Positions 883 to 56,611 of a stretch of DNA of 64,000 nt are shown piece after piece. The stretch is from positions 13,742,709 to 13,806,708 of the forward strand of contig CM057003.1 in the NCBI GenBank assembly GCA_029891345.1. Reading direction: 5' to 3'. Every line of letters starts with the position of its first letter. Positions within the stretch are counted from its first letter, which is position 1. A program made the position numbers and the translations under genes. The notes below the pieces were generated by a model. The model searched no databases. It saw nothing but the letters and a program-made list of their open reading frames with translations, and was not told where the DNA came from. Source of the DNA: Dryococelus australis (taxonomy: Eukaryota; Arthropoda; Insecta; Phasmatodea; Phasmatidae).

Positions 883-3587
883 AATGCGCATTACATTCTG
901 TATAAGATGCATAGACCTATGTATGTCAAAAATGTGATTAGGGTTATCGTAAAAGATTAAACATACAGATGAAGTTATTATAATTTTCAACTGACAAAGA
1001 CTGTGTTCGTGGACCTTGAGTTCTCTCCTCTACGTCGCGTCGCCTCGGTGGAACAGTGTTCCGAAATACCTCACGTTTGCCACAACGGGGAAAATAAACG
1101 TCTTTAAAAGTATTATAGGCCTACGTTATTTATGAGTGTGTCATGAAGGTAAAGGAATAACATCGGTGCGTAAGAAAATTGATAAAATACTTACAGTGAA
1201 TGTGGTTGCTCACTGCTACCAAATGTCTGAAAGTGGAATCAATGGATTATTTGAGGTAGTGTTTGGATCATTACCACTGGAAATTAAGTTACAGTATCTC
1301 ATGTACTGTAAATAATAATTCGTGTATTAGGAATATTTACGTAGCATCTTTATAAAAATTTCAAATTTGCGAATATACGTATTTTAAGAAGCATAACTCA
1401 ACTATTTCATTTATTAGTAAAAAAATTTTACTATCAGTGTTGACTGTATTACCATAATACAGATCATATGTAAGCATAGTTTTTTGTTGCAAAATATTTC
1501 GTTGTAAATACTTACAGAGCACAAATATTAATATTGTATCGCGCCTCGTTTATTTCCTGGGGTATTTCATAAACCGCTTTCAGAGCACTGAAAGCAGCTT
1601 TAACAGGGCTGCGCAAAAATTAAGAAAAAAAAAATACCCATTATACTTTTAAGATTAATATTTTGTATTTTCTCGTATGAGCTTTGTTTGACAAATATGG
1701 TTACCTGAAAGGTATTTTTCCTGATACGTCATCTTCACGACAGCTTTCAACACAACACGACGCTGTGTTAGTTAGTGGTGTATCCGGGGGGGGGGGGGTT
1801 CAACACAACATGACGCTGTATTATTATTTAGAGGTGTATCCAGGGGAGGGGGGAGGGGACTAAATAAACCCCAGCTATTAATTCCAGAGAATACTTAAAA
1901 TGTGCACTTTTGTGATAAGTATTTAATGCAAAACTAAGTGTGCCTGAATTTAATTATATTTATTACAGAAACGGTTACCTTTGATGTAGCGAAATCATTC
2001 ACAGCCGTGATAAAGTACCAACATTTCCCCAAAATTAATATTCTTTTAGTTAACGGTTGTCTCGTACCTGCGCCAAAACAAATAGTATGTGCATAACACT
2101 TGATATTCGCTAACAAATCTTAGTCGAGCCATCGTCCTGCGAAACTTTTCCTGAGATTCCGTGCTAATGTAGTTCACTTTTCCTGAGATTCCATGCTAAT
2201 GTAGTTCACTTTCTCTGATTTTCCATGCTAATGTAGTTCACTTTTCCTGAGATTCCGTGCTAATGTAGTTCACTTTTCCTGAGATCCCGTGCTAATGTAG
2301 TTCACTTTTCCTGAGATCCCGTGCTAATGTAGTTCACTTTCTCTGATTTTCGTTATACTCTTACTGAGTGTTGTTCATTAAATTATTGGAATGCTCGAGA
2401 AGCTATTTTGCTCTTCGATGAAACTACACACGTTTATCGCTTCTCCGGCTGGAAAAATTCTAATTGTTTTTGGATGAATTATTAGCTAGGGACGTATACA
2501 AGCAAATTCAAATCTTAGTATATTTCTTTATCTTCGTTAGTTTTTTATTTTTTTATTTTCACTTAGGAACTTCAGCATGCACATTACGCCAGAATAAATC
2601 GATTAGCTTAATTTAATTTTCGTGCCAGAAGTGAAAACATGGTTATCTTTGTAACGCACAACATGCACATCTGTGGCGTATTTATTACAAAGGAAAGTTT
2701 TTTTGCTCGTAAATTGCTAGAAACTATTTCGGCAGCCAAGCGACACGTTTTTTTTTTTTTTTTTTTTTTAAGAACAAGAATAAATTTACAGTGTACGTCG
2801 AATCCTTCCAAGGTAATACGAGGCGTTGGGTTTAATTTCCACTCGTGTCTAACATTGGACAATATCCGCATTCACTACATATACAGGCGCACAAAACAAC
2901 TGGGAAACAATCCTTACACCAACTTAGAAACCACTTTGCTTTATGCATGTGGACAAAAGTCTCCTTCAGTTAACCACAGCTATGCTGGTGGTGGCGATGA
3001 GCCTAGCAAGCGCGTATACGAAGGCCAATTGTTTCAAATGCTTAAATAATCCGAAACAAATAGTAACAACATAGCTAATTACCAACTACACGTATATTCG
3101 CACATTTGTAATTTTTATAAAGATGCTACGTAAATATTCCTAATACACGAATTATTATTTACAGTACATGAGATACTGTAATTGAATTTCCAGTGGTAAT
3201 GATCCAAACACTACCTCAAATAGTCCATTGATTCCACTTTCAGACATTTGGTAGCAGTGTGCGACCACATTCACTGTAAGTATTTTATCAATTTTCTTAC
3301 GCACCGGTGTTATTCCTTTACCTTCATGACACACTCATAAATAACGTAGGCCTATAATACTTTTAAAGACGTTTATTTTCCCCGTTGTGGCAAACGTGAG
3401 GTATTTCGGAACACTGTTCCACCGAGGCGACGCGACGTAGAGGAGAGAACTCAAGGTCCACGAACACAGTCTTTGTCAGTTGAAAATTATAATAACTTCA
3501 TCTGTATGTTTAATCTTTTACGATAACCCTAATCACATTTTTGACATACATAGGTCTATGCATCTTATACAGAATGTAATGCGCATT
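883..3587. mobile_element. Foldback element with ~500-bp inverted arms
   Basis: Positions 883-1380 and 3091-3587 are near-identical reverse complements of almost equal length (498 and 497 bp). For example, the left-arm string GTGTTCCGAAATACCTCACG returns inverted in the right arm near 3398. The 1.7 kb between the arms has no convincing coding frame; it holds a G run near 1788-1798, a 32-bp minisatellite and a T run near 2750. Two long arms around a non-coding core are the architecture of a foldback or long-TIR non-autonomous DNA transposon. High arm identity suggests a recent insertion or gene conversion. I could not identify a target duplication, so the superfamily is open. A local inverted segmental duplication is the alternative. 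Confidence 0.75.
2145..2352. repeat. 32-bp minisatellite, six full copies plus a partial
   Basis: Units begin at 2145, 2177, 2209, 2241, 2273 and 2305, with a partial at 2337. Each unit carries CTTTTCCTGAGATTCC followed by GCTAATGTAGTTCA. Two units share the variant CTTTCTCTGATTTTC. It lies in the core of the foldback element. Confidence 0.95.
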
Positions 3588-11600: not shown

Positions 11601-11949
11601 TTATTTTTTGTTACATTGAAATTTTAATCTATACATAGTCTAAAACAAAGTCGCCAGGCCGTGTGTGTCTGTGTATTCGGCTAATGCTTCAAACATGAAT
11701 ATTTAGCATCGTCATACTCTCCAGTATAGAGACTTAAAATTTGGAGGGATTTTTACCTGTTAGTTATTTCGTAACGGCAGTTTAAGTGAAGGCGCGTCAA
11801 GTTCTCCCAGGCAGTGGGTCGGAGCTGTCGCCCGAGTGCGACCCATGTGACGGGATGTGCTGCAACGTTCGTAATTGTCGACCAACTGAGTTCACCTCCC
11901 GTTCTTCTAACTATGGGCCGTGCCTACCGGCTGGCAGCTGCGAAATGTA

Positions 11950-12325
11950 ATTAGGAGATCCTATGTAAAGGAAATTTAACTATGATATCCCATGTAAAGG
12001 AAATTTAACTAGGAGATCCCATGTAGAGGGAATTTAATTAGGAGATCCCGTGTAATTGAAATTTAATTAGGAGATCCCATGTAATTGGAATTTAATTAGG
12101 AGATCCCATGCAAAGTAAATTTAATTAGGAGATCCCATGTAAAGGAAATTTAACTAGGAGATCCCATGTAAAGGGAATTTAACTAGGAGATCCCATGTAA
12201 AGGAAATTTAATTAGGAAACCCCATGTAAAGGAAATTTAACTAGGAGATTCCCTGTAAAGGAAATTTAATTAACAGATGTCATTTAAAGGGAATTTGATT
12301 AGGAGATCCCGTGTAAAGGAACTTT
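11950..12325. repeat. 30-bp minisatellite, about 12 copies
   Basis: The unit has two parts, AGGAGATCCCATGTAAAGG and AAATTTAACT, in tandem with point variants (TAATTGGAATT, TAGAGGGAATT). No spacers separate the units and the units themselves vary, so this is not a CRISPR array. Confidence 0.95.
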
Positions 12326-12627
12326 AATCATGTAAAAGAAATGACGCCTCAGGGCGTTAATTTTAAAAATAGGCGTTAAAAAAAAAAAATTATCCATCAC
12401 AAATTTTTTAGGACAAGTTCTGTACAGCGGAGACGTTTCCATGACGTGTATATAGCCTGTTTACAAAGAATTTTTAAAAGTTATATTTTACAAAAATGTA
12501 CACATTGTCTATGTATATTAAAAATATGCGTTCGTAGGGATCTTCTCCTAAAAAAATTCCTGAATAATACATCGTGTTTGAAGCACCTATCTTTAAAATT
12601 TAAAGCTTTGAGGCGAAACTTCCTTAA

Positions 12628-15057: not shown

Positions 15058-15155
15058 GAGGTTAGGTTAGGTAAGGCTAGGTTAGGTTAAATTAGGTTAG
15101 CTTAGCTTAGGTTCAGTTAGGCCAAGTTAGGTAAGGTTAGGTTAGGTTAGGTTTA
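15058..15155. repeat. Interstitial TTAGG telomere-type repeats
   Basis: About 18 degenerate units of GGTTA/GGTTAG occur, with variants such as GGCTA and GCTTA. TTAGG is the ancestral arthropod telomere repeat. Its degeneracy and short length indicate an old interstitial tract, not a chromosome end. Confidence 0.9.
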
Positions 15156-36400: not shown

Positions 36401-39400
36401 TTCTCGAATTAATTCGCAAAATTTACCTGTCTTTAGTTACAGATTGCACTTTACGTGCCTTTTCTACCAGACATTAGCAACTGCTTCAGGTGTGTATACG
36501 ATATTCCCCAAGTTACATTCGTTACACAGTGTTGGCCTGACAACATAAGAGATCCTTGATGAACTAGAGCCCCGGAAATTTCGCGAGCTCATTTGACGGC
36601 AGGGCTGATTTTATAAGTTCTATATACACTCCAGGGACCCTTTTGGTGGAGAGGTTACAGATGGGAACACCCGATTTCCGCGAAAAGATTTCACGACCAT
36701 TTGTATTCGATAATACTTTGGCTCAGATCCTCTTTCTTCATTGGCTGGATTTACATGTTACGTGTCTTAGGTGTCTGCTCGCGAATCACAGATAAACACT
36801 ATAGGAGTAACCTAATTCCGACTGGCTAACCAAGTAAGAAAATGTTCTCTCACAAACAACACGGCCAATAAGTAGAGATCTGAAGAATTCGCGGATTCCT
36901 TTTGGGACAAGCAAGAATTCAAAACACGTGCGTTTATATAACTTAAGCCATTGGTCCACACGGTGTTTTACATTTCCTGGAGAAGGGTGTCCAATTGTCG
37001 CCTTACATTGTGACAACAGTCAACCAATGTGCCGTTGATATTGTCATATTTATGCATAAGTCTGTCGAGTATAGCCCGCAGGTCATTGAACTCGCTAATT
37101 TTTTCAAGTCTCTACCAGTAAGTAAAAGAACACTGCTGATATACTCGTAGGTTATTAAAACCTAACATGTGGGGAAATCTTTTCCCGAAATTCGAATGTC
37201 CCTAGTATAACTAGGGACAACTAGAGCTAGTGATTTTTCGCAATAAAATATGAGTACAAGGTTTGCTTCAATACTATAAGCACTCAACATCAGTTTGCCT
37301 ATTGCCATTGTTTGCTGTCTGCTTAAGGAGGCGTTTTCGCATTTGTCTGGGCCACTCAGAATTCGGCAACATCGGCACGGCTCCTACGTGATTCATGTGC
37401 AGACAGGTAACACGTGTCAAAAAGTAATTCAGCAAATCAATATAGTTAAACGACCGAACAGAGTCTTAAAATATAATTGGTACACTGTTAAAAAATTTCC
37501 GAATAATTACAGAATGTTTTACGGAAATGTACAGTGTATATACGGAAAGGCAATTCGTAATGACGAAAAACGGAGTTTAAGTCCGTAAATACAAAATACG
37601 GAAAGTCTTCGTATTTTCATAATCTCTTTTTATTTTATCCGGAAAATACAGAAAACTAACTTGGAAATTAACGGATAGGTTCAGCGAAATTTACAGAAAA
37701 TCAGTTTCTGGAAATCAACTTGTCCGTAATTTTACGGAGAGTTCACGGACACTTCTGGATAAAATCTTACCAGCACTTTTCCGTAAAATGAAGGAAAAAA
37801 TTTTTTGTAACAGTGTATTGAAATCTTTTTCGCGAAATTTCACCACCCCTTGTTATAGCGCTCGCCTCCCAACAAAGCGGGCTGGGTTAGCTTCCCGGCG
37901 AGGGTCACTGCCCGTCCTTGCATTCCGGCGCCGCTCCATGTCCACGTCGTTCACCCCTGGTCGGCTCTCAAGAGCTCATTGCTGAGAGCAACCTAAACTC
38001 CTCCACACACTATATACACCCTGGCGCTGTTAATTATCCAGTGACTTGTGTCTTCATGCTCGACACTTCATCCTGTGTACTAGAATCTACATGAATCGCT
38101 CGGGATCTTTCTATGTGGTTATCAGTGTTTGACGGTCCTGCAGGCAGCGTCAATAAACAAATGCTCCAATTACGAAAGTAACAAGAATGTAAAAATCGGT
38201 CTACTTTATGTCCTCGTACAGCTTGTACTAGCAAAATCTACGGGTCTCTAGTTATCACTAGGGATACCCGAATTTCGCCAAAAGATTTCTGCACATGCTA
38301 TATCTCAATAGCCTACCGGCGTACCGTCAGTTTTCATATGCTTATTGGCCACCCGCCTTTAAGAGAAGACATTTTCTTCCTTGACGGGCCAATCAGAATT
38401 AGTTAACTCCGATCCTGTACGTCTGTGATTCGCGAGCACGTACTTTAGACGCGTAACACCTACATCAGCCAGCCAATCAAGAAAGGTGATCTGAACTAAA
38501 GAGTTATAAAATACAGCTGGTCGTGAAATCTTTTCTCGAAATTCCAGTGTCCCTAGTCATCACCTAACCTGAAAACGCCAACCGCAGAAATATTTCGTGC
38601 TTTCCTGTTCTGGTAGATATTGAGGAAACAAATATTTTTAACGTGAAACAAATGGTAATATCAGAAGCCGCAACCTCCAGTTTTTTTCAAAAATATTCCG
38701 CAAATTGATTTGCGGGCAAGCTAGACTCGAAACCCGTGTACATTTTACTTTCCTTTACAATTTGATCGCAGATTGTAAATCACGCGCTGGACGAGTTTGA
38801 GCCAATAATTATTCTGCAAATAAACAGAGACCGAATCTCATGCTAACAGGAATTGGGGGATATTGGAATATCGGTCAATGTAGCTAGTTGAGATTCGTTT
38901 TGCTCCTGCTGGGATTTGCTCCTGATGGCATATTTGACGATGTGGTTTCCGCAGGGCTTAGGCTGTGGCCGACCGGCAGGAAGGACATCGATCAGGCCAT
39001 CATCGACGCCTTGGAGAAACTGCGCTCGGAGATGAAGGTCGGGAATCCCACCTTGGGGATCCCTGCCCTGGAGCCGTATAAACTCGCCCGCCTCAACTTC
39101 GACATCAACGAGGAGATCGCAGTGTGAGTGAAGCTAGTTGTCTTGCTTTGTTTGTCGCATGGGAATTCAGCAAAGTCATGTGTAGAGACCTGCAAAGTTC
39201 GCATTATTGCTTAGTAACATACGAGACTTCACTACCCTATATCTGCTAAGGCGTAACTCGCGATTTCACTTTCTATCGGCTGCTATGCAGTGTCATTTAC
39301 CTGTGTGAGCATTTTACAAGAGGTTGGTGGCTCAACAATTGTGCCTTTGTTATTTCGCAAGAGGTTACTGGTTCATATCACAAAACCTTGTCCGCCAATC

Positions 39401-42400
39401 TCAGAAATTAACGAGCGTACAGTACCTTGGAGTTTAATTCGCAGTCACAAAATAGCACGAATTTTGAAAGTCACTAGTAATCTGACGACAGTACACCCTC
39501 ATAGACATTAAATTATTACGACAATTATTTCTGTCTTGTATTTTAAACCGCTTTAGTTCAGACTGCCCTCACGATTGGGTGTTTCTTTGGTGCCTGCCGC
39601 GAATCACAAACTTTCATTACCGGGATAAATCAGAACTATTTTACTCCGGTAATGATTTCCTTTAAGTGGGCGATTTTATCCCCTGCCGAATGTTCACATA
39701 CGGCAGATATCGGATCACACTAACACTATTAACGAATTTGTTGTTTCATCTCGTGCGGTTTCAGATATTTTGCAAATAACTAGCCCTTACTAGGGTAGCA
39801 TCATTTATAGTAACTCGAAAGTGGCTAAGAATGCTAACATAACATTTCTGATCTTGTATTTAAGAGTTTTTTTTTTTTTTACAATCACAATGCCAGTTTT
39901 TCTGTGGCAAGCCAAAACCTACAATTGCGTCCGGGTTTTCGCTATAAATGCTTGTGTTTGCTGTACCATCTGTCAGGATGCAACTTAAGCCAAGAGATTC
40001 TAACTGGTTCCATACATTGCGCAGGGTGAAAGGATTCCTGACGAACCTGGTGGTGACTCATCTCTCCGAGTTCAAGATCATCGCCATCAAGAACGACTTG
40101 AAGAACCTGAAGGCGTTCTTCAAGCTCTCTTTTCCGACGATACGGTTCGCGGGACACTACAACGTCAGCGGCATCGCGCTCAGTTCCATCAACGTCTTCG
40201 GCGACGGAGACTTCTGGTTGGTAGTGCTGCTTCTCCGGTACTATATCTGACCCGTTTCATTCTTCGACTTAGCACACACAACATTCCCCGGCAGACAGAA
40301 GTCGGGCCTGACCTCCCATCCAACATTTCACACAATCAATCTTCAACTGGGAGTATTACTTCGTTTCTCATAGCGAGGGAAAGTTTCACCAGTTAATTTG
40401 AGGACAAGCTAGACTTCAAACAGCTGTGTATATGAGCACCGTGACGTTTGGCTCATAGTTTGTTAGACACGCCGTGAATGACTCTGAGACAATAGCATAC
40501 CAACTTGAAAACAAGAACATAATCTCGTACTACCTTGCAAGGATGAAACTGGCTACACTCAATAAGAAGGCAACCAACGAGAAAGAAGCTGGATATCTTG
40601 TGTACAATGGACTGCGGCATACAGCTTTCTTATCATTTAACTCGCTAAATGTTTCTGCCCCTACTTATAGCGAATCTCTTCGGAATCCTACACTCTTTTT
40701 GCTTTTCCCAGGAAACCATTGACAAAAAATCAAGTAATTCCGAATCTGGGAATCTCAAACATCATTCCTCCTCTAAGAGGAAGTCATTTTTCTCTAACCA
40801 TTCTTAATACCAGCATTGAACCATTTTTCATAACTAGGGTTCTCATATTAACCCCCAATCATGCCACATCATAGCTGCTGTCACCTCCATCACATACGTC
40901 ACAATTTTGTTCACATCCTCTTTTTGTCATATTTGGCACTTACACTAAGATAAAAGTTTTGCTGAATCAAACAAGATTTGTTTGGTCCAACCAAATTATT
41001 TGTTTGTATAGGGACAATGAAATATTTTGTTGCTGAAACCAAATTATTTTGTTGTTCTCATTTTGTTGCCCCAAACTGTAAGGTTTGGTTAGTGCACCTA
41101 AGGATTTGTTTAGCTACACGTACATTAAACAGTTTGGGCGGATATAAAAAAAAAAGCCCGACCGAGTTTCGATCCTAGATCACCTAAGCCAAATCACTGC
41201 GCCTTAGTACCCTCAGCTATCGTGACAACTGGTAGTTCAGGAAAGCTTTTAAATAGATATAGTACAAATTTTGGGTAACGTGTGCAAACAAATATTTCAA
41301 GTTTTACAGCCTTGCTAGTCAATTTCTTGTTGCATTGTTTTATGAATATGTTTATACGATTGTTAAGCATCAATAGGTGTACTAATAAACACGGTCACTA
41401 CTCTAATTGTCACTAAAAAATACAAACAAATTCTCGAGCCGTATTTTCGAACGAAGGCCGTTAAATGAGTGGTCAAACAAATATATACAGTTGATTCAAC
41501 AAAATTTTTTTTTTTGATAGTCTAATATTTTTTGGCCCAACACACAGATTTTGTTTATTCAAGCATTTATTTTGTTAGACGAACAAAAGTAATTTTGTTG
41601 TTTTTCAAATTTTGTTTGCTCAACAATATATTTTGTTAGGGCAACTAAATATTTATTTGACCCTATACAAACAAATATTTTGTTCGATTTTCTCTTAGTG
41701 TAGTTTACGTAATCAAGATCAAAATTGTCGTGTGAGAAACACGCTCTTTAGCTTCAGACCTAGTAACGTTGAATAGATTACCTTGAAATAGTGGTGGAAG
41801 GTCTTAAGCCATATGAAATCTTATAAACTCTAAGCCTGAGTTAGTGATATATCAGTCTGTGAGACAACAGTTTCTGAATGACAGTTAATAAGGTACTACA
41901 GATTAGCTAGCCAAGCAAATGAACTGGGAATGAGTGAGTTATGATAGTGAACTTCTCAAAATTTTGGGAATCATACGTAAATCAGTGACATTCGGCCATC
42001 GCATTAATCATTTATCAGTATGGATAGGAAAATTTCGCGGGTTCAATGACCTGTAGGCGAGACTCCACAGTCATGTGTATACTCGAGCCAGAGATGTTTG
42101 TTCATTGGCTGCTGTCCCATAGAGTAGCCAGTGTTACTTCACACTTGGCAGTATGTCCCTCTCGCTACTTGTTTCCTTGCAAGTCTGCTATTGGCTCAGA
42201 GTCGGTCAGGGCGTGTCTAATAAACTGCGATCCAATTGCAAAGTCAACTTCAGTGCACACGTGTGTTCGACGTCTATCTGCCCCTTTCAATATCCCACAT
42301 ACACATGTGCGCCTTTCCTTTGGCCATTGGCTGCGAGTCTTTGCGTGAAGACAGTCTGTTACATGGGCAAGCCAATCGGAATTATGTTACTTCGATAATG

Positions 42401-45400
42401 ACCGTCCGTGATTAGCGGACAGAAATATAAGACGGGTAACAATTTAAATGATCCAATCACGAAAGTTGTTTTGAACTACAATACTTTGGAACACAGCTCG
42501 TCTTGAAATCTTTTAGCAAAAAACAGGTGCCCCTATTAATAGGTAGAGACCCGAGAATTCCGCGAATACATTCAACAACAAGCTAGACTCCACAGCTCTT
42601 TGTGAACTTGAGCCTCAGCTAGCTGTTCATTGGCTGTTCCTCCATTTCAATTACTGTCCAGGTAGCACGTGATTCGGTCCTTGTTTTCCCTACAGGTTCG
42701 TTATTGGTCGAAAGTCGTCCGGGGGCGTGTGTAACAAACTGTGGTCCTATAAGCGGAACTTTGTGGTACATGTGGATACAGTTTAACGTGTCCTTAACCC
42801 TTTCAGGCCCACTTTTTAAATTACCTTTTTTAGGTGTTGCAAACAGAAAAATTGATTATGTGTGCTGTACTAAAGACGACACAAATCATATTTCGTTGTC
42901 ACGGCCAAAGAGCTGTAAGCTATATGTGCGGCTATAGTTACGCGAACCAATAATGACCCAGATCAACAAGACGGTTCGCAAATCATTTAGCCACAGGTAA
43001 GATCATTGGTCGTTGAGCTTCGCTGTGTATAAAAAAGACCGAAAATTACCTACACGTGAGCAGTGTACACAGTGCGTATGCAATGGGTCTGAATGGGTTA
43101 AATATACTCGTGAAATTCTCTGGCCTCTACTAATAGACATCGGGTAGTTTACTTACCGGCCGGCGAACCACGCGACAAGGAACTCTTTTCACAGCGTGAG
43201 GTAATCTGGCAGACACAAATACGGTTACCCCAGTTAAGGTGATATTTCTCTTCTTTTTTTTTTTTGGAATTTGGTTATCTGAGAGAGGTTTCGATAAGTT
43301 GATGCAGTTGTTATTTGTCAAATCATTATAGTTTTCGAAATATAACACTCAAATTCCGACACGATAGTGTCGTAGGCAGGCTCAAAGTGTTGCATTAGAG
43401 TCTAAGCGCGGCACACTGCATTTGTGTTACAATCTGCGAAAGGAACAAAAACAACTTTTTCTCTACAGTTTATGGTTCGAACTATTTATTAAAACAATTT
43501 TAACAGTTTCGCTTGAATGAACGAAACTATATTTACAAGTCTGACCCCTACTTTCGAAAAAAATTCAGTGCCCCAATACTAGCTCACCCGTTTATAAATC
43601 GCACTCATACTGAATCTGTATGTTCTGCATACGACACATATTGCATTAAATGCAATTTGACTGGGGAAAAAAATTCTAAGAACAAAGCCTAAAATGCTGC
43701 AGAATTCGGGAAATTACGACTTTTGAGTGTTATATTTTGAAAACTATAATGATTTGACAACTTACAACTGCATTAAGCGGAAACTTTTCAAACGATATTT
43801 CTGATAGTAAAATTTAAAAAATGTAAAATATCACCTTGACCAGAGAGTGTCATTTCGTCTTTGTGTAGTGAGTTAAGAGATTTGGACGGCTATTACCAGA
43901 GTGGTCTTGATAGCTGACGACGGTGACGGAGGTGAGTATGGAGCAGCGCCGGAATGAAGGGGTGGAGGAAACGGGAGATCCCCGAGAAAACCCGTGGACC
44001 AGCGCCTTCAGTTTTCACATGTGTAAATTTGCAACTTTTTAAAATTAAAATAGTAACTAGAGATGTAGATGTATTCCAGATAAAACATATAATCCTATTC
44101 AGTGTAAATTTAAGTATGAATTTATTCAAAAATTGTGTGTATAAATGGGACATTATTTAGAAAAATCTCTGTTATAAAACTGAGGCAGCTAAGAAATGCG
44201 ATTTTGTAAGTTTCTTTCATTTCTGGGGAATGAAATAATCTGTGGTGAATTTCACAATTTCTTTTTCCTGGAACAGGATCAAATTTATAAAAAGCGCCCG
44301 GGCTCCAGCTATAAACTACACGCCGACTCCTGTTATAGCCTAATCTGACCAGCTGGTTTGTCGTGTAATCATGTTCCAGGCTGACTCTGACCAACTTGAC
44401 TACCTGGGGAAACGTGGCCCTCTCTTCAGAGGACGGCACTGAAGACTCATCTTTCACCATCAAAACCCTCGCCATAGACTTCACCCTCGCTGACATGAAG
44501 GTGAGTTGATGGCAGTGTCATATCTTAAGGCTGTTCAAAAGCTACATCTTATTCTAAATCTTGAGGATATGTTGTTCTTTAGTTACATTAAATAAATGAC
44601 TACTTTAAAACAATGCCAAATAATTTGCAAAATAATATATATATATATATATATCTGAAATAATATTTAAATATGCCTTATATAATGGGTTAGGTTAGGT
44701 TAGTTAGGTTAGGTCTGGTTAGGTTAGTAGCGAAACATCAAAACAACCTCACAGCTTTAATATATATATTATAAATTATATATTAATATATATTAAATAT
44801 ATATTAAAGCTGTGAATACGAGAATTTTAACTTATGATTTCAAAAATTATTTCATCACAATTTTTAGTATCTACTTAAACGTTTCTTTAAGTTACAGCAG
44901 TGGCATGCACCCTTTGCCCCTAGACATTTGGTTCACCTGTGGCGAAGGCCAAACGTTTGTATATTTCTGCTCTAAAATTTGATCTGGACAGTAAAAACAG
45001 AAATACGGACGAATCGCGTAACAAAGTTCTGAGATCTATTTTTCATACCATTCAAATATAAAAAAAAAAAAAAAAAAAAGCTAATTTATTATTTTGAGCT
45101 GTAGCCTAACATATTAATTTTCTTCAACTTTGAGATTTGCACAAAATTAAATATATATTTAAAATTCTTATTATTCGTTTCATTCGATTTTGAAATGCCA
45201 TTTTCTTCATTTGTCATCCTATTTTCAGTTCGTTATTTCATATGTCAGCAAAAAAGAATTTAATTTGCTAGAAACTGGTAAAATAATTTTAGCTTCTTGA
45301 AAGTCGTTTGATATACGCAGGTTTCAAGGGTTGATTTCAAAAGTTCTCACTTTACCGTGAACAGCCTGTAAGCCCCCTTGGCTGGTGGATACCGACGCAG

Positions 45401-47416
45401 ACAAAATGCTGTGTGTTCCAGCGTAATGCTATTCGCTCTTGCTGATAATGCGTTGTCTAAATTGGTGTTAGCTTCTCATCTTTCACAGCTCGCAGAAATG
45501 GCCATGGTTTTACCTAATCTGCTTCAAATCCTTTGTGCAGTAGTATATACTCGGTGCAATATGTTAATCCATTCAAAATTCAGCGTTCACAGCCGTGTGC
45601 ATAATGCACGGGAATGTTATCTTGGCCGTTCTGTACATTGCGAGGATTAACGCCTAATCTTAGCAAACAGTATTATTGTTCTAGACTTGGAGTTGTTCAT
45701 ATTACTGTAGCTTAACACACACATTCTACAGCTTACTGGTTGTAATAATGAAACAGGTGCAATGTTGTCCTAAGTACAGCACGCATGAAAAAAAATTTCC
45801 TATTTGCAACACAACCCATAAACTTCAAAAGTGTCTGAGAGGCTTGAGGAGTCTAAGCTTCCGAAATGTAATAATTTCTGACGAAAATTGCTTCAAAACG
45901 AAACAATTAAAACGCTTCTTATTAGTAACTTCTCGCACTGGATGTCCGCGAGGATTATCTGAACTTATTCCTCAAAAAGTGTACAGATGGAAACTGATGC
46001 CGGATAACTAAAGACATTGATAGATTTCGTTGCGTTTTACACTCATACGCGAATTAATAAGCTAGTCGCTGAATGTCAGTTCAACGCTGCTATGGATTGG
46101 ATTTTGCATGAACTTAATGTACGGTAGACTGAATTTCGTTTTATGCGCATGTGCCCAACATTGAATCATTCATTAATAGGGACATGCAAAATTGGCGTTA
46201 TTATTTGGCACCAGGCTGAACGTCACAGTACTGTATGCACTAGAGCCGACGTCGTTGCTCCATTGACTGCTTCATAAATGTGAGTTCACTCTCTTTCCGA
46301 CTGAACTGCACGTGATTGGGGGACACGATTGTGAAGTGTTCATTTATTGGCGCAGGTTTTACCAGAGCGTGTCACCTGAGGTTTGGGCCAATAAAAAATG
46401 TATTGCAGAGGCACACGTGTTTGAAGTTTGACATGCCCCCAGATAATAATGCGAATTTTGCAGGTATTACCACCAAAACTTTCAAAAATACTTAGTCAAA
46501 CAGTGGTATACAACTTTTATATTTGGTTTCCATAAGATACAAGCTTTTGTATTGTAAAAATACTTAGTCAAACAGTGGTATACAACTTTTACATTTGGTT
46601 TCCATAAGATACAAGCTTTTGTATTGTAAAAACACTTTAAATTTAGTATACTTTACTTTCGTTAAAATTGCGTTAGCGGTAGCTTACCAACATAAAAAAA
46701 AAAACAATATTTTTATAAAGAGTATTATAAATTATAATTCAGTCCACGTTGTCTCGGTATTGCTACTAATGAGAAAAAAAAAAGTAAATTAACGGGCGAG
46801 TCAGTAGAGTAAGCAATGATGGTAGTTTATTGCTGGAAAGGATTTCTGTTTCCTGGGATTCAACATACTGCCTGCACACATGTCCGACAGTTTTATTTTC
46901 CTATTGGCTGAGCGGTTAGCCTGCTCGCCTCCCACCAATGGGTTCCGGGTTAAATCCCCAGCCGGGTCAATCCGTATTTTCGCATGTGGGAATCGTGCCG
47001 GACGATACCGTTGATCGGCGGGTTTTCTCGGGGATCCCCCGTTTCCCCCGCCCTTTCATTCCGGCGCTGCTCCATACTCACCTCAATCACCCTCATCGGG
47101 TCTTAAAACCTCGACGTTAAGAGCCGTCCAACTCTCTTCACTCTAACTGCAGTACGTGGTCGCCGTGTGTCGAAAAGTTCTGACAGACGCCGCCTTGTGG
47201 CCGACTTTGCAGGCGAACTTCCAGAACATCCAAGGCGGCGGCTTACAGGGCGACGCCATCAACGACATCATCAACGAGAACGGCGTAGAGCTGGTGACGG
47301 AGGAGAAGAAGCCCATCGCCTCCTTAATACAGAAGACCGTCATCAAGTTCGCCGACAAGATCTCGAGCAAGTACACCCTGCGGCAGGTCCTCCAGTACCT
47401 GGGCGTCGAGGACTGA
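33313..47416 (+). CDS. JHBP/takeout-like secreted lipid-binding protein (five coding exons)
   Basis: The joined exons (33313-33409, 38955-39123, 40025-40216, 44380-44500, 47213-47416) give a 260-residue protein. Every intron is GT-AG and every phase matches (1, 2, 2, 0). Residues 1-22 form a signal peptide (hydrophobic FFFAVTVALAASVMG, cleavage likely after ANA). The mature part follows the JHBP (DUF233) pattern: helix IDQAIIDALEKLRSEM, the LGIPALEPYKL turn, GHYNVSG near 130-137, GDGDFWLTLTNL near 148-159, and the C-terminal GDAINDIINENGVEL helix. Family members are extracellular TULIP-fold carriers of juvenile hormone, terpenoids or other lipids; the ligand here is unknown. Typical takeout proteins carry an N-terminal cysteine pair, but this product has no cysteine at all. 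Sequons occur at N135 and N158. Exons are GC-richer than the transposon-filled introns. A group-7-allergen-like TULIP protein is the main alternative. Confidence 0.85.
33410..35931. other. Intron 1, 5' part
   Basis: AT-rich intron sequence with a G run near 33500-33512. I recognise no exon, and no named repeat apart from a fragment near 35400-35490. That fragment (ACACATGTCCGACAGTTTTC then CCTTATTGGCTG) recurs upstream of the SINE at 46909. Confidence 0.5.
35932..36357. mobile_element. MITE family C copy 3
   Basis: Left end TATAGACTACTCGCTATTTC; right end, inverted, TAATCCATTCACGTTAAC. It matches the 21540 copy throughout (CACCCTGTGTATGACGTGTT, GTTTGTACTACACGGAGG). It lies in intron 1. Confidence 0.7.
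36565..36640. mobile_element. Family G hAT-like fragment
   Basis: CCCGGAAATTTCGCGAGCTC resembles the left ends of family G at 42026 and 42544. Only the end is recognisable. Confidence 0.35.
36658..37204 (-). mobile_element. hAT-like MITE, family D copy 3, host of a nested element
   Basis: Left end GGGAACACCCGATTTCCGCG; right end CCCGAAATTCGAATGTCCCT. The internal order (GTGTCTGCTCGCGAATCACA, CTAATTCCGACTGGCTAACC) matches the intact inverted copy at 49078. It is interrupted at its CCAATAAG site by the family E element 36873-37114. Confidence 0.8.
36873..37114 (+). mobile_element. hAT-like MITE, family E copy 2, nested in family D
   Basis: A 242-bp element with ends TAGAGATCTGAAGAATTCGC and TTTTTTCAAGTCTCTA. 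The flanking 8-mers are CCAATAAG (36865-36872) and CCAGTAAG (37115-37122), a 7/8 target duplication of the host's own internal CCAAT motif. Confidence 0.88.
37212..37849 (+). mobile_element. hAT-like MITE, family D subtype copy 4, host of a nested element
   Basis: Starts TAGGGACAACTAGAGC with GTGATTTTTCGC just inside, and ends TTTTCGCGAAATTTCACCAC. It parallels the copy at 53715 (TAATTCAGC, GAGTCT/GTTTTGAAATAT). It is interrupted by the element at 37481-37817 and abuts a SINE at 37850. Confidence 0.7.
37481..37817. mobile_element. TA-flanked CACTG MITE nested in family D
   Basis: A 337-bp segment running from TACACTGTTAAAAAATTTCC to TTTTTTGTAACAGTGTA. It is full of short inverted motifs (ACGGAAA/TTTCCGT), so the transcript would fold extensively. 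The family D host is continuous across it. The TA duplication and CACTG ends resemble the larger elements at 40941 and 60106. Confidence 0.8.
37850..38012 (+). mobile_element. tRNA-derived SINE copy, internally short
   Basis: Has a tRNA-like head (TATAGCGCTCGCCTCCC then GGGCTGGGTTAGCTTCCC), the block TGCATTCCGGCGCCGCTCC, the block GGCTCTCAAGAGCTCATT and the tail AAACTCCTCCACACAC. Confidence 0.75.
38259..38555 (+). mobile_element. hAT-like MITE, family D copy 5
   Basis: A 297-bp element with ends TAGGGATACCCGAATTTCGC and CTCGAAATTCCAGTGTCCCT. Flanking 8-mers GTTATCAC and GTCATCAC (7/8) form the duplication. The internal motif is CTTATTGGCC. It lies about 400 bp upstream of coding exon 2. Confidence 0.9.
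38955..39123 (+). CDS. JHBP-like gene, coding exon 2
   Basis: The acceptor is GTTTCCGCAG|GG and the donor is GCAGT|GTGAGT. It encodes the amphipathic helix and the LGIPALEP motif. The frame is open further upstream (from about 38888), but there is no other good acceptor and the phase fits exon 1 exactly. Confidence 0.82.
39181..39245. mobile_element. Family F hAT-like end fragment in intron 2
   Basis: TAGAGACCTGCAAAGTTCGC matches the family F left end. The right end was not found before exon 3. Confidence 0.5.
40025..40216 (+). CDS. JHBP-like gene, coding exon 3
   Basis: The acceptor is CATTGCGCAG|G. The donor is TTCTG|GTTGGT, a weak consensus but the only frame-consistent choice, completing a Trp codon with exon 4. 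It encodes the central beta-rich segment including KLSFPTIRFAGHY. Confidence 0.8.
40941..41702 (+). mobile_element. TA-flanked CACTG element with tRNA-like insert (762 bp), copy 1
   Basis: Ends TACACTAAGATAAAAG and TTTTCTCTTAGTGTA. Much of it is built from ATTTTGTTG/CAACAAAAT motifs in both orientations. A ~75-bp block (41150-41225) reads on the minus strand as TACTAAGGCGCAGTGATTTG then GATCTAGGATCGAAACTC and then a T run. These resemble pol III A and B boxes with a terminator. It lies in intron 3. An inverted relative is at 60106-60770. Confidence 0.75.
42026..42280 (+). mobile_element. hAT-like MITE, family G copy 1 (3'-truncated)
   Basis: It runs AATTTCGCGGGTTCAATGAC, GAGACTCCACAGTCATGTGT, CATTGGCTGCTGTCCC and TCCAATTGCAAAGTCAACTT, parallel to the copy at 51883. 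It breaks off at GACGTCTATCTG and continues as a family D piece. Confidence 0.7.
42281..42535 (+). mobile_element. hAT-like MITE, family D copy 6 (5'-truncated)
   Basis: Runs CAATATCCCACATACACATG, GGCCATTGGCTGCGAGTC and TTAGCAAAAAACAGGTGCCC, the same subtype as 50343 in reverse. It is fused to the family G fragment on its left, giving a chimeric or deletion-joined element. Confidence 0.7.
42544..43129. mobile_element. hAT-like MITE, family G copy 2, host of a nested element
   Basis: Left end TAGAGACCCGAGAATTCCGC; right end CGTGAAATTCTCTGGCCTCT. Flanks TTAATAGG and CTAATAGA are a 6/8 duplication. It is split by the TTAA element 42798-43097. Confidence 0.78.
42798..43097. mobile_element. piggyBac-like MITE, family H copy 3 (intact), nested in family G
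   Basis: A 300-bp element with ends CCCTTTCAGGCCCACTTT and, inverted, CCCATTCAGACCCATTG. It has TTAA on both sides (42794-42797 and 43098-43101). The family G host resumes directly after, so insertion is clear. TTAA plus CCC ends are diagnostic of piggyBac-type mobility. Confidence 0.9.
43130..44379. other. Intron 3, 3' part
   Basis: AT-rich intron with one SINE fragment (43894-44030). A piece of 43300-43350 (AACACTCAAATT / TTATAGTTTTCGAAATATAA) recurs inverted at 43726-43752, which suggests a further foldback element of about 440 bp. Confidence 0.45.
43894..44030 (-). mobile_element. tRNA-derived SINE fragment (inverted)
   Basis: Reverse complement of the SINE body: ATGGAGCAGCGCCGGAATGA, AACGGGAGATCCCCGAGAAA and TTTTCACATGTG. 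The head and tail are missing. Confidence 0.8.
44380..44500 (+). CDS. JHBP-like gene, coding exon 4
   Basis: The acceptor is CATGTTCCAG|G and the donor is ATGAAG|GTGAGT (strong). It encodes LTLTNLTTWGNVALSS through DFTLADMK, the second long strand region of the family. Confidence 0.82.
44637..44655. repeat. (TA)n microsatellite
   Basis: About nine TA dinucleotides in intron 4. Confidence 0.9.
44689..44729. repeat. Interstitial TTAGG tract in intron 4
   Basis: About eight GGTTA units with one GGTCTGG interruption. Same repeat class as 15058-15155. Confidence 0.85.
44750..44814. repeat. AT-rich hairpin (arms about 18 bp)
   Basis: CACAGCTTTAATATATA recurs inverted as TATATATTAAAGCTGTG around a 30-bp AT loop, directly after the TTAGG tract. 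Confidence 0.85.
45311..45366 (+). mobile_element. Family A MITE right-end fragment
   Basis: GATTTCAAAAGTTCTCACTT and TACCGTGAACAGCCT match the family-A right end only. Confidence 0.65.
45600..45810. mobile_element. piggyBac-like MITE, family H fragment
   Basis: GTTCATATTACTGTAGC, ACAGCTTACTGGTTG and CCTAAGTACAGCACGCAT match internal family H sequence. Both termini are lost. Confidence 0.55.
46177..46469 (+). mobile_element. hAT-like MITE, family F copy 1
   Basis: Starts TAGGGACATGCAAAATTGGC and ends ATGCGAATTTTGCAGGTATT. It carries internal TTTATTGGCGCAGG and GGGCCAATAAAAAATG motifs. The 8-bp duplication is not clear. It lies in intron 4. Confidence 0.75.
46488..46631. repeat. 72-bp tandem duplication in intron 4
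   Basis: Two near-identical copies containing ATACTTAGTCAAACAGTGGT and CCATAAGATACAAGCTTTTG, with one visible substitution (TATATTTGG versus TACATTTGG). Confidence 0.95.
46909..47146 (+). mobile_element. tRNA-derived SINE copy just upstream of coding exon 5
   Basis: The head GAGCGGTTAGCCTGCTCGCC fits an A box and GGGTTAAATCCCC fits a B box. The body blocks GGTTTTCTCGGGGATCCCC, TTCATTCCGGCGCTGCTCC and CTCATCGGGTCTTAAAACC follow, and the tail is CAACTCTCTTCACTC. It sits immediately 3' of a CCTATTGGCTG motif in a hAT-like fragment and ends 66 bp before exon 5. Confidence 0.85.
47213..47416 (+). CDS. JHBP-like gene, coding exon 5 and stop
   Basis: The acceptor is CGACTTTGCAG|GCG, with TTCTGAC as a candidate branch point about 25 bp upstream, phase 0. 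It encodes ANFQNIQGGG through QVLQYLGVED and then TGA at 47414. The frame stays open upstream to 47153, so a longer in-frame version using the CTAACTGCAG acceptor at 47152 is possible. Confidence 0.82.
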   Translation, partial: ANFQNIQGGGLQGDAINDIINENGVELVTEEKKPIASLIQKTVIKFADKISSKYTLRQVLQYLGVED

Positions 47417-47964: not shown

Positions 47965-48474
47965 TAGGGACAAGTGTTTTTCGCGAAAATATTAATTGAC
48001 ATGCTAGATTTCAATACCCTAAGTCCTGAAGAATTCGCGGATTCATTTTGGGACAAGCTAGAATTCAAAAAACGTATGTGTGAATAATCTCAGCCATTGG
48101 TCCACACGATGTTGACACCTCCTAGGGAACAGTGGCCCAATCGTCTCCTTCCACTGTGACAGCAGACAACCAATGTGCAGTTTATATCGGCATATTAGTT
48201 CATAAGTCTCTAGAGTCTAGCCTGCAGTTCATTGAACTCGCGAATTTTTCAGGTTTCTAGTTATTGGCCGCGTGTCTACGTGAGAAGACATGTTCTTCTT
48301 TGACTCGGCTAATCGAAATAAAGTACTCCGATACTGACCGTACATGATTCGCGGACAGACAGTTAAGTCACGTGACATTTAAAATCATCCAACTACGAAA
48401 GTGTATATGAAGTAAAGTGGTTTGGAGTACAACAGGTCTTGAAATATTATCGCGAAAAACACTTGTCCCTTTTT
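47965..48474 (+). mobile_element. hAT-like MITE, family D copy 7, host of a nested element
   Basis: Left end TAGGGACAAGTGTTTTTCGC; right end CGCGAAAAACACTTGTCCCT, a perfect 19-20 bp inverted match. Family E (48022-48259) is inserted at its TTATTGGCCGCG site, with loss of the host segment left of the insertion. Confidence 0.85.
48022..48259 (+). mobile_element. hAT-like MITE, family E copy 3, nested in family D
   Basis: It begins TCCTGAAGAATTCGCGG (terminal bases lost) and ends CGCGAATTTTTCAGGTTTCT. The right flank is GTTATTGG, the same host motif hit by family E at 36873 but with the host in the opposite orientation. Confidence 0.82.
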
Positions 48475-52287: not shown

Positions 52288-52566
52288 TAGGGACAAACCG
52301 AATTTCGCGAAAAGATTTCCTTACATGCTGGAATTCAATACCCTACGAGGGTACCAGCAGTTTCCTTTTACTTATTGGCGGCGTGTCTTTGTGAGAAGAC
52401 ATTTTCCTACTTGACAGGCCAATCAGAATTAGGTAACGTCTGTGATTCGCGCGCAGACACCTGAGACGAGACACGGAAACCATCCAATCACCACAGTAGA
52501 TATGAGATAAAGTGTTATGAAATATAACTGGTCGTGAAATCTTTTCGCTAAATTTGGGTGTCCTTA
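52288..52566 (+). mobile_element. hAT-like MITE, family D copy 10
   Basis: A 279-bp element with ends TAGGGACAAACCGAATTTCG and GCTAAATTTGGGTGTCCTTA. Flanks TGTATTAG and TATATTAG are a 7/8 duplication. The right flank is shared with the next element. Confidence 0.88.
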
Positions 52567-52574
52567 TATATTAG

Positions 52575-52866
52575 TAGGGACCTGCAAAACTCGCGTTATT
52601 ATTTGGCATCAGGCTAAACTTCACAGTACTGTACATACTGGAGCTGGTATCGTTTCTCCATTGGTTGCCGCCTAGATGTGAAGTCACGCCTTTTCTGACT
52701 GAACTGCGCGTGATTGGGGCACATAATTGTGAAGTGTTCATTTATTTGCTCCGGATTACCTGGGGCGTGTCAAATAAAGTACACTCCAATTACAAGCGTA
52801 TTGAAAAGGTACGTATGTTTTAAGTTTAATATGTCCCGAAATAACAATGCGAATTTTGCAGGTGTC
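52575..52866 (+). mobile_element. hAT-like MITE, family F copy 3, abutting family D
   Basis: Starts TAGGGACCTGCAAAACTCGC and ends ATGCGAATTTTGCAGGTGTC. TATATTAG lies on both sides (52567-52574 and 52867-52874), so this element inserted into the duplication left by its neighbour. Confidence 0.85.
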
Positions 52867-52968
52867 TATATTAGGCATAATTTTTAGTATTAATAGAGTT
52901 CTAATCGAGTGACATTTTTTCTGCTCCAAATGCAAGGGATGGAAAAATAAAAGTGGAATAAGTAATAC

Positions 52969-55072: not shown

Positions 55073-55104
55073 ACTATCTCTGTGCTTAGGTAAGTGCTTG
55101 TCGC

Positions 55105-55704
55105 TAGGGACCTGCAAAATTCGTGTTATTTTGTGACTGTACGATGAACTTCGCCGCCATATGTATATTCGAGCCAGGGTCATTTGTTTATTGGTAGGTA
55201 CTTGCAAAATTCGCGTGGTTTTCTGGCATCTCGCTATAATTCACCGTCGTATACATGTTCGAGTCGTTGTCATTTGTTTATTGGCTTCTGCACCAGTGAG
55301 AACCCATTTTCCCTTTAGATTTGGTTGGACGTCATTGAACCAGCCTCTCGTAAGTAGTTTTCTATTGGTCGAAAGGCGTCAAGGAAGTGTCCAGACAAAC
55401 TGTAGTCCAATTACAAATGCAATAAAAAAAGCACAAGTGTTTGAAGTCTAGTCTGTGTTGAAATATTAACGCGAAATTTGCATGTCTCTATTTATTGGCT
55501 TCCACAGCAGTCATGTGCCATTTTCCCTTTCGACTATGGTTGGACGCGATTGGACCAAGCTGTCGTTTTTTTTTTTTTTTTTGTTTCGAATAAATCCGGC
55601 ACGTGTCAGACAAAATATAGCTAAGTAAAAAAAACATCAGGAATGTGTTATACTTCAAAATCTATTCTGTCCTCAAATAATATCGCGAATTTTGCAGGTC
55701 TCTA
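55105..55704 (+). mobile_element. hAT-like MITE, family F copy 4 (outer), host of a self-family insertion
   Basis: Ends TAGGGACCTGCAAAATTCGT and CGCGAATTTTGCAGGTCTCT. Flanks CTTGTCGC and CTTATCGC (7/8). It is interrupted at its internal TTTATTGGCTTC by the element 55195-55490. Confidence 0.9.
55195..55490 (+). mobile_element. hAT-like MITE, family F copy 5 (inner)
   Basis: A 296-bp element with ends TAGGTACTTGCAAAATTCGC and CGCGAAATTTGCATGTCTCT. The duplication TTTATTGG is perfect (55187-55194 and 55491-55498). The inner element itself retains the same uninterrupted TTTATTGGCTTC site. Confidence 0.92.
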
Positions 55705-56611
55705 CTTATCGCTATGCACAGTTGTAGCCAGTCTAACTGAAAACCAGCGGGTTATATATTATGTATATCACTGCGTTGTGTTATGGTGTGCTTATTGCAA
55801 TTGTGCCTGAGCCTTTGTAGGAGGAACTAATCGTGCAAAATCATTCCTAGAGTTAAATTAATTTCTCACGTGAGCTGCCAGTGTCCAGTGAACGAAATAC
55901 ACAATCGACAGTGCTATGTCTTGACAACAGTTCACCGGAATCAAATTTATTATATTTCCTGTTACCGACTTACTTTCAGTAAACTGTGTTCTCTTAGTTT
56001 CGTCTTGGTGTTTCACAGATCACAGTCTAGGACTGTGTACTTCAAAATCAACTAATCTTTTTTCCATTCCCTGCTAGTGCAGCGAGCTACACGAAATCCG
56101 AAACAACGCATCGCGGGCAAGGCTACTTCTTCCCAATTTCTCATTTATATGAGAAAACATATTTCCACTTTGTAACGATTTCTTAAGTTATGTTGTCAAT
56201 TTAATTAATTTTTAACTAAATCTCTCGTGACGAAAGCTACGCTCGAAACGTGTCTAAGTATGTCTCACAGAAATTCAAAGCGAGAAATTTGGGTGTATTA
56301 AATCAATTACTTACCAGTGTTTTATGAAGTATAGCGAGTTAGGTAATTATGATATTGGGTAAATTTTAATTGCTGTCAACTCATTTTAACAATAATAGTT
56401 TTTTATTCAAACATCGAAAACTGGTGATGTTAAATTCAAACAAATTTAATGAAAGGGAGAATGTATATCAAAATTCGAAAAATGGTTGTGATCTTTAAAA
56501 TTATTTTAATTAACCCTCTTAACGGTAAAATACTTATTATTGTCAACGAGCTTTTTTTATGTGACACATATATACAGAGTTATCGCGGGCTCTCTCAGGG
56601 CTGTCTCTAAC
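55705..56611. other. AT-rich non-coding stretch
   Basis: No gene is seen. TTAACCCTCTTAACGG near 56511 resembles a piggyBac-type left end, but no partner end was found. Confidence 0.4.

Follow-up and report, generated by a model that had tools for sequence, protein, structure and literature searches.

A stretch of 64,000 nucleotides of Dryococelus australis DNA, which we refer to as the window, holds at positions 55105-55704 a hAT-like MITE of family F into which another family F element has inserted. Two further cases in the window involve family E elements inside family D copies, at an equivalent position of the host. Why should new copies arrive at the same base pair of their own relatives? 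An earlier note on this DNA suggested targeting of an internal motif, possibly bound by a CCAAT factor, and nesting that could act as a safe haven. We find that the hotspot inside relatives is real and recurrent, and that it is very probably set by the transposase's own 8-bp target preference. Neither a CCAAT factor nor a safe haven is needed, ordinary target choice being the most likely explanation.

Nested insertions in the window

The outer element at 55105-55704 (forward strand) is bordered by the 8-mers CTTGTCGC (55097-55104) and CTTATCGC (55705-55712). It carries a second family F element of 296 bp at 55195-55490, also on the forward strand and 70% identical to the rejoined host. The target duplication TTTATTGG, at position 83-90 of the host, flanks the inner copy on both sides (55187-55194 on the left, 55491-55498 on the right), which confirms an F element inside an F element with a perfect 8-bp duplication. 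The inner copy also retains the same site, as had been claimed, with an unoccupied TTTATTGG at 55277-55284. No open reading frame of at least 120 aa overlaps 55105-55704.

Family E elements were found in two family D hosts. The first host, on the reverse strand at 36660-37204 (left edge approximate), is split by a forward-strand E element at 36873-37114, flanked by CCAATAAG (36865-36872) and CCAGTAAG (37115-37122). The second, on the forward strand at 47965-48472, bears a partial deletion to the left of its insert, an E element at 48013-48259 (forward strand, left edge approximate) with a damaged left tip. Because the left duplication, part of the D host and the tip of the E element were all deleted, the duplication of this second insert is not demonstrable, but its right flank GTTATTGG (48260-48267) is the homologous 8-mer of the D host. 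The proposal that E elements hit an equivalent motif in two D copies therefore holds with its duplication for the insert at 36873-37114, and by the right flank, without the left duplication, for that at about 48013. All three targets in the window share one host register, lying at position 83 in the two rejoinable hosts and in the same alignment columns in the two D hosts.

These events are independent, since the two D hosts run in opposite directions, with 70% identity over the parts that can be compared, and identity between the E inserts is 82%, in agreement with the earlier view that they are not amplified from one composite. A single duplicated composite was rejected because of the opposite D orientation, the divergence of hosts and inserts, and the differing duplications. 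On the same evidence it is scarcely credible that the cases descend from a single copied composite or from errors of assembly, and further nested copies on other contigs (C7, C8, C9 and C11) also speak against this.

A fourth case had been seen in a tRNA-like SINE at 46905-47143 (forward strand), which adjoins a D-like fragment at 46846-46910, a 65-base BLAST piece that ends at 46910. The SINE letters TTGGCTGAGCGG can be aligned to the head of another SINE copy. The string TGGCTGAGCGG there fits the A box of a tRNA and likewise aligns to the head of the SINE copy at 28.5 kb. ARAGORN called no tRNA gene. There are no D-profile hits between 46459 and 47965, and D sequence does not resume past the SINE. 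The common letters overlap the tRNA-like head of the SINE, which was not inserted by the MITE enzyme. Four hits on one motif thus become three in the window, and the motif itself recurs, being used at 8/16 host sites in the genome sample described below.

The D/E/F family and its CCAAT boxes

D, E and F are related hAT-like MITEs. Profile searches, whose first-round profiles mixed strands and subfamilies and were later replaced, detected many copies in the window, mostly at 35-63 kb. Uninterrupted elements are about 230-305 bp long and end in TAGGGAC or TAGAGAC. Their terminal inverted repeats of about 20 bp are similar and of the TAGGGACCTGCAAAATTCGCG type; among the 10 window elements listed, between 11 and 19 of the 20 terminal bases match. 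The copies are numerous also in the assembly, in which a search listed 41 matches of 3314 candidates, with 40 scored. As expected of MITEs, the elements are short, have no coding capacity, carry terminal inverted repeats and occur in many copies; as expected of hAT elements, they have 8-bp target duplications and short terminal inverted repeats, which are given as 5-27 bp for hAT in the excerpted text of PMC3517528. Nothing in Rfam matched at the gathering threshold, and the 19-base terminal pattern found no match among IMG/VR viral contigs. A hand-made list of 40 D/E/F pieces amounts to 8,947 bp, or 14% of the window.

Many of these MITEs lie in the introns of a juvenile-hormone-binding-protein-like gene with exon-like stretches at 38957-39127, 40025-40219 and 47216-47416. 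Only the first stretch matched Pfam JHBP (PF06585, E=3.8e-9), the second giving no match, and a query joining all three found two proteins with 52-54% identity, both of them belonging to the stick insect Bacillus rossius. Elsewhere the window contains an inverted repeat (883-1380 and 3090-3587) with 498-nt arms, 98% complementary and 1709 nt apart, and tandem arrays at 11942-12328 and 2144-2340 with units of 29 bp and 32 bp, respectively. Short AGGTT and GGTTA arrays, units of the arthropod telomere motif TTAGG, occur at 15059-15153 and 44688-44727, internal to the contig.

The MITE pieces contain 73 CCAAT pentamers against 19.6 +/- 4.3 expected from 300 dinucleotide shuffles, counts that are not independent because the copies share ancestry; another 78 lie in the 55 kb of the window outside the pieces. 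This density would suit a model in which an NF-Y-like CCAAT-binding host protein tethers or exposes the boxes in the germline and nesting is a selected safe haven. The boxes also have preferred places. In 15/19 near-complete copies a CCAAT stands 78-89 bp from the 3' end, and 10/19 have an ATTGG at a distance of 78-90 bp from the 5' end. When the 6-mers of a 24-copy alignment are ordered by conservation, CATTGG comes 12th and ATTGGC 14th, mostly behind terminal 6-mers. Subterminal and conserved boxes might point instead to an enzyme that, bound at the CCAAT boxes or ends of a resident element, steers new copies to the resident's target copies. According to the excerpted text of PMC10368747, the Hermes transposase binds subterminal repeats via BED domains, which would fit such guidance.

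Target preference in the window and in a genome sample

A target model for the window was built from 12 non-nested insertions, with orientation chosen by likelihood. Its leave-one-out score was 44.3, compared with a maximum of 20.1 across 60 random sets. Under this model the nested sites take rank 1 of 289, 2 of 288 and 2 of 206 positions, the last host being open to scanning only from the site rightwards, and the three sites exceed chance under uniform placement. Each nested site receives 7-21% of the target mass of its host, depending on the pseudocount, and the joint P of all three hits is 0.0009-0.006 (about 0.002-0.006, with 0.0009 at the heaviest pseudocount), far above uniform placement yet low. 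It rises to 0.009-0.06 when other nested sites are added to the training set. A CCAAT lies within 40 bp of 1/12 non-nested window insertions, compared with 9.1% of random stretches, which argues against a host factor bound to CCAAT.

The sample was drawn from the 3.415-Gb, 646-contig assembly and consisted of 30 search loci together with 200 kb from contig C9. After removal of overlaps it held 329,975 bases in 28 pieces, namely the window, 7 blocks and 20 loci; L026, a partial overlap, was left out. Because the query used to rank the search loci held the F-in-F composite, copies next to TTATTGG-like letters may have gained a slight advantage in this similarity ranking (L006, for example), whereas the C9 sequence was picked around F hits and not by nesting. 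Structure and profiles together supported 100 elements with 8-bp duplications, 32 of them perfect, 45 with one mismatch and 23 with two; some may be false, because random flank pairings pass the same criterion of at most two mismatches in 9.1%. The symmetrised target of the 87 first-pass non-nested insertions reads C/G, T (0.53), T (0.47), A (0.90), T (0.90), A (0.47), A (0.53), C/G.

With tandem neighbours removed, 18 of the 100 copies are nested in D/E/F relatives, and merging two tandem pairs leaves 16 host sites. These comprise D81-88, D51-64 and D241-255, three times each, E181 twice, and E120, E210, F83, F212 and F267. The nested insertions of the sample are therefore uneven along their hosts, an even spread having been named as the observation that would count against a hotspot. 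The C9 blocks by themselves contribute 11 nested copies at 9 host sites, of which 4 are in the CCAAT register, or 5 with the tandem pair. Host scores run from 40 to 207 bits, two D hosts (40 and 50) being weak. Both the nested and the non-nested counts leave aside two one-sided cases (C9:18990000 block 9655 and C9:15960000 block 13207) and the window E element at 48013, the latter because its left duplication is absent; a split-host listing was not used for counts.

The CCAAT register accounts for 8/16 host sites, or 9 when one tandem pair at D81-88 is counted, in which 1 of 3 target copies is in that register. The sites away from CCAAT number 7/16, or 8 if the tandem pair is taken by its first copy, and these 7-8 hits count against a CCAAT-binding host protein. 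We trained a model on 80 strictly non-nested copies and scored each nested site by the better of its two duplication copies. The true site came first in 11/16 hosts and among the top three in 14/16.

Is there a CCAAT excess beyond what this target preference predicts? On present-day hosts, 8 CCAAT hits stand against 3.8 expected (P=0.014), or 2.9 with CCAAT-free training (P=0.0022). Non-nested insertions hit CCAAT in 7/80 cases (5.0 per copy), with 3.6 expected, or 2.5 with CCAAT-free training. Both results lean towards the factor-directed reading, for which the residual excess on present-day hosts is one of the two supports. However, present-day hosts are decayed and have lost boxes, whereas the target is read from the duplications, and a second test used consensus hosts as an approximation of young hosts. 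On these, 6.9 CCAAT hits are expected (P=0.38 for at least 8, 0.21 for at least 9), or 5.6 with CCAAT-free training (P=0.16 for at least 8, 0.066 for at least 9). The top consensus sites are D81-88 in D and E120-127 in E, and F267, F212 and F83 rank second to fourth in F; D51-64 and D241-255 were used as targets yet are weak in the D consensus.

The TTATTGG 7-mer was used at 3/15 MITE sites and 0/8 sites elsewhere (Fisher P=0.26), an underpowered comparison that gives the host-factor model no help. A first-pass contrast of 7/13 nested against 12/87 other insertions in the CCAAT register (Fisher P=0.0026) was discarded as an artefact of method, because a tandem neighbour had hidden the nested state of several copies counted as non-nested.

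Given the power that 16 sites allow, target preference is enough, and a mild CCAAT excess is possible. If a factor were bound at the motif, hits should probably be scattered about it; the fixed 8-mer register argues against such a factor. With 11/16 true sites ranked first by the target model and P=0.38 on the consensus hosts, the claim that a CCAAT factor is the cause is not supported, and we regard an NF-Y-like tether combined with a selected safe haven as very unlikely.

Nesting share and tandem arrays

Of the copies with duplications, 2/12 are nested in the window (MITE cover 0.14), 11/61 across the C9 blocks (cover 0.22) and 5/27 at the search loci (cover 0.25), shares of 17-19%. Three nested of 15 insertions in the window against 14% cover give P=0.35, and a mild nesting excess is possible because cover was lower at the time of insertion. 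The mean target weight per position is 0.64, 0.66 and 0.95 for the D, E and F consensuses, 0.82 outside the elements and 0.86 for present-day copies. Dinucleotide shuffles reached the consensus weights in 100/200 cases for D, 73/200 for E and 21/200 for F. By target weight, D/E/F elements are not decoys. Since nested shares are not clearly above DNA cover and the consensuses are no better targets than their surroundings, the safe-haven proposal gains no clear support; the lack of a clear nesting excess and the weights of 0.64, 0.66 and 0.95 against 0.82 likewise weigh against the host-factor model as a whole.

Elements of this family also stand in tandem. Among 211 ends and 219 starts with profile support, 16 pairs have an end-to-start spacing of exactly 8 bp, whereas no other spacing between 0 and 60 is seen more than twice. 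Thirteen of the pairs lie elsewhere in the sample and three in the window, all on the forward strand. At 52288-52868, a D element (52288-52566) and an F element (52575-52868) share the 8-bp spacer TATATTAG (pair 52566/52575). At 42286-43129, a D element (42286-42535) is followed by an F-like element (42544-43129) after the 8-bp spacer TTAATAGG (pair 42535/42544). At 38110-38555, an F-like tail with an approximate left edge ends at 38250 and is followed by a D element at 38259-38555, with the spacer GTTATCAC (pair 38250/38259). A case of 7-bp spacing was seen at 37204/37212.

The simple reading of the 8-bp spacing is insertion into the resident's own duplication. With today's copies, 9.5 such pairs are expected (P=0.034), and with half of them present on average 4.8 (P=3.9e-5), so that the observed pairs exceed the model 1.7-3.3 times. 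Either model error or self-guidance could lie behind this gap. The 16 pairs against 4.8-9.5 expected are what an enzyme bound at the resident's boxes or ends would tend to produce; yet the nested share shows no clear excess, and the 1.7-3.3-fold gap may be model error because the model rests on 80-87 sites and treats its columns as independent. We therefore consider guidance by a bound enzyme unlikely, and retain the transposase's own target preference as the most likely explanation of the hotspot.

The F-like element at 42544-43129 itself contains, at 42794-43101 (forward strand), an element that begins and finishes with TTAA. Its termini are inverted TTAACCC repeats, by which it is piggyBac-like. 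It is nested at a different position and obeys its own target. Related pieces match at 12620, 18167, 45562, 53472 and 63842.

Discussion

The D, E and F elements are most likely non-autonomous hAT-like MITEs, about 240-300 bp long, which depend for movement on a transposase from another locus. This enzyme probably integrates across an 8-bp target that reads C/G-T-T-A-T-A-A-C/G, A4 and T5 being almost invariant, and the preference read from the non-nested insertions presumably belongs to such a hAT transposase. Targets of the form nnnATTGG or CCAATnnn meet much of it. The MITEs carry conserved CCAAT boxes, several of them some 80-90 bp inside either end. The 5' box of D copies, and of some F copies, is xTTATTGG, among the best targets within the element. 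Because the box fits the target preference, new copies entering a relative would often land there in a fixed register; because the resident's own duplication is a good target, tandem arrays with exactly 8 bp between elements would arise in the same way. The CCAAT boxes themselves may be conserved on other grounds, for instance because the transposase or a host protein binds them.

The target resembles and departs from those of known hAT elements. Hermes and other hAT transposons are described, in the excerpted text of PMC10368747, as making 8-bp duplications at 5'-nTnnnnAn-3'. The duplication length is alike, and T2 and A7 are the commonest bases here too, but at only 0.53 each; the strongest positions are A4 and T5 (0.90). 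Mar, a hAT MITE of the Buster family in Drosophila, targets nnnTAnnn and ends in CAGRGGTAGGC, as far as the excerpt of PMC3517528 goes. On that description, Mar and the present family are both short non-autonomous insect hAT elements with 8-bp duplications, but the core here is nnnATnnn, with ends TAGGGAC or TAGAGAC, and the nnnTAnnn target of the Buster group is replaced by A and T at positions 4-5 (0.90 each).

Nested MITEs and the safe-haven idea are already in print. The excerpt of PMC3695323 credits Jiang and Wessler (2001) with nested MITEs within the same family in maize and rice, for which limitation or a 'safe haven' was proposed, and reports that DcSto Stowaway MITEs of carrot are nested and clustered, with independent insertions at one position. 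Nesting and the repeated position are alike in carrot and here, whereas DcSto, as described there, are plant Stowaway elements with TA targets. Compared with the maize and rice cases as summarised in that excerpt, the present elements are hAT-like and from an insect, with 8-bp targets, a recurrent CCAAT-containing 8-mer and tandem arrays linked by target duplications, and the position of nesting is explained here by target preference.

It is also conceivable, though unlikely, that transposase held at subterminal CCAAT boxes or at the ends of residents guides copies both to xTTATTGG and to the residents' own duplications. If this were true, the family would create an array of landing sites for itself in a region poor in genes, its tandem copies linked through single shared 8-bp targets. 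Elements in tandem with 8-bp spacing offer a clean signature, countable genome-wide, by which to ask whether transposons attract their kin. For the hotspot itself, the D/E/F family illustrates that striking insertions at the same base pair of relatives can stem from the target preference of an enzyme acting on a motif that the family carries.
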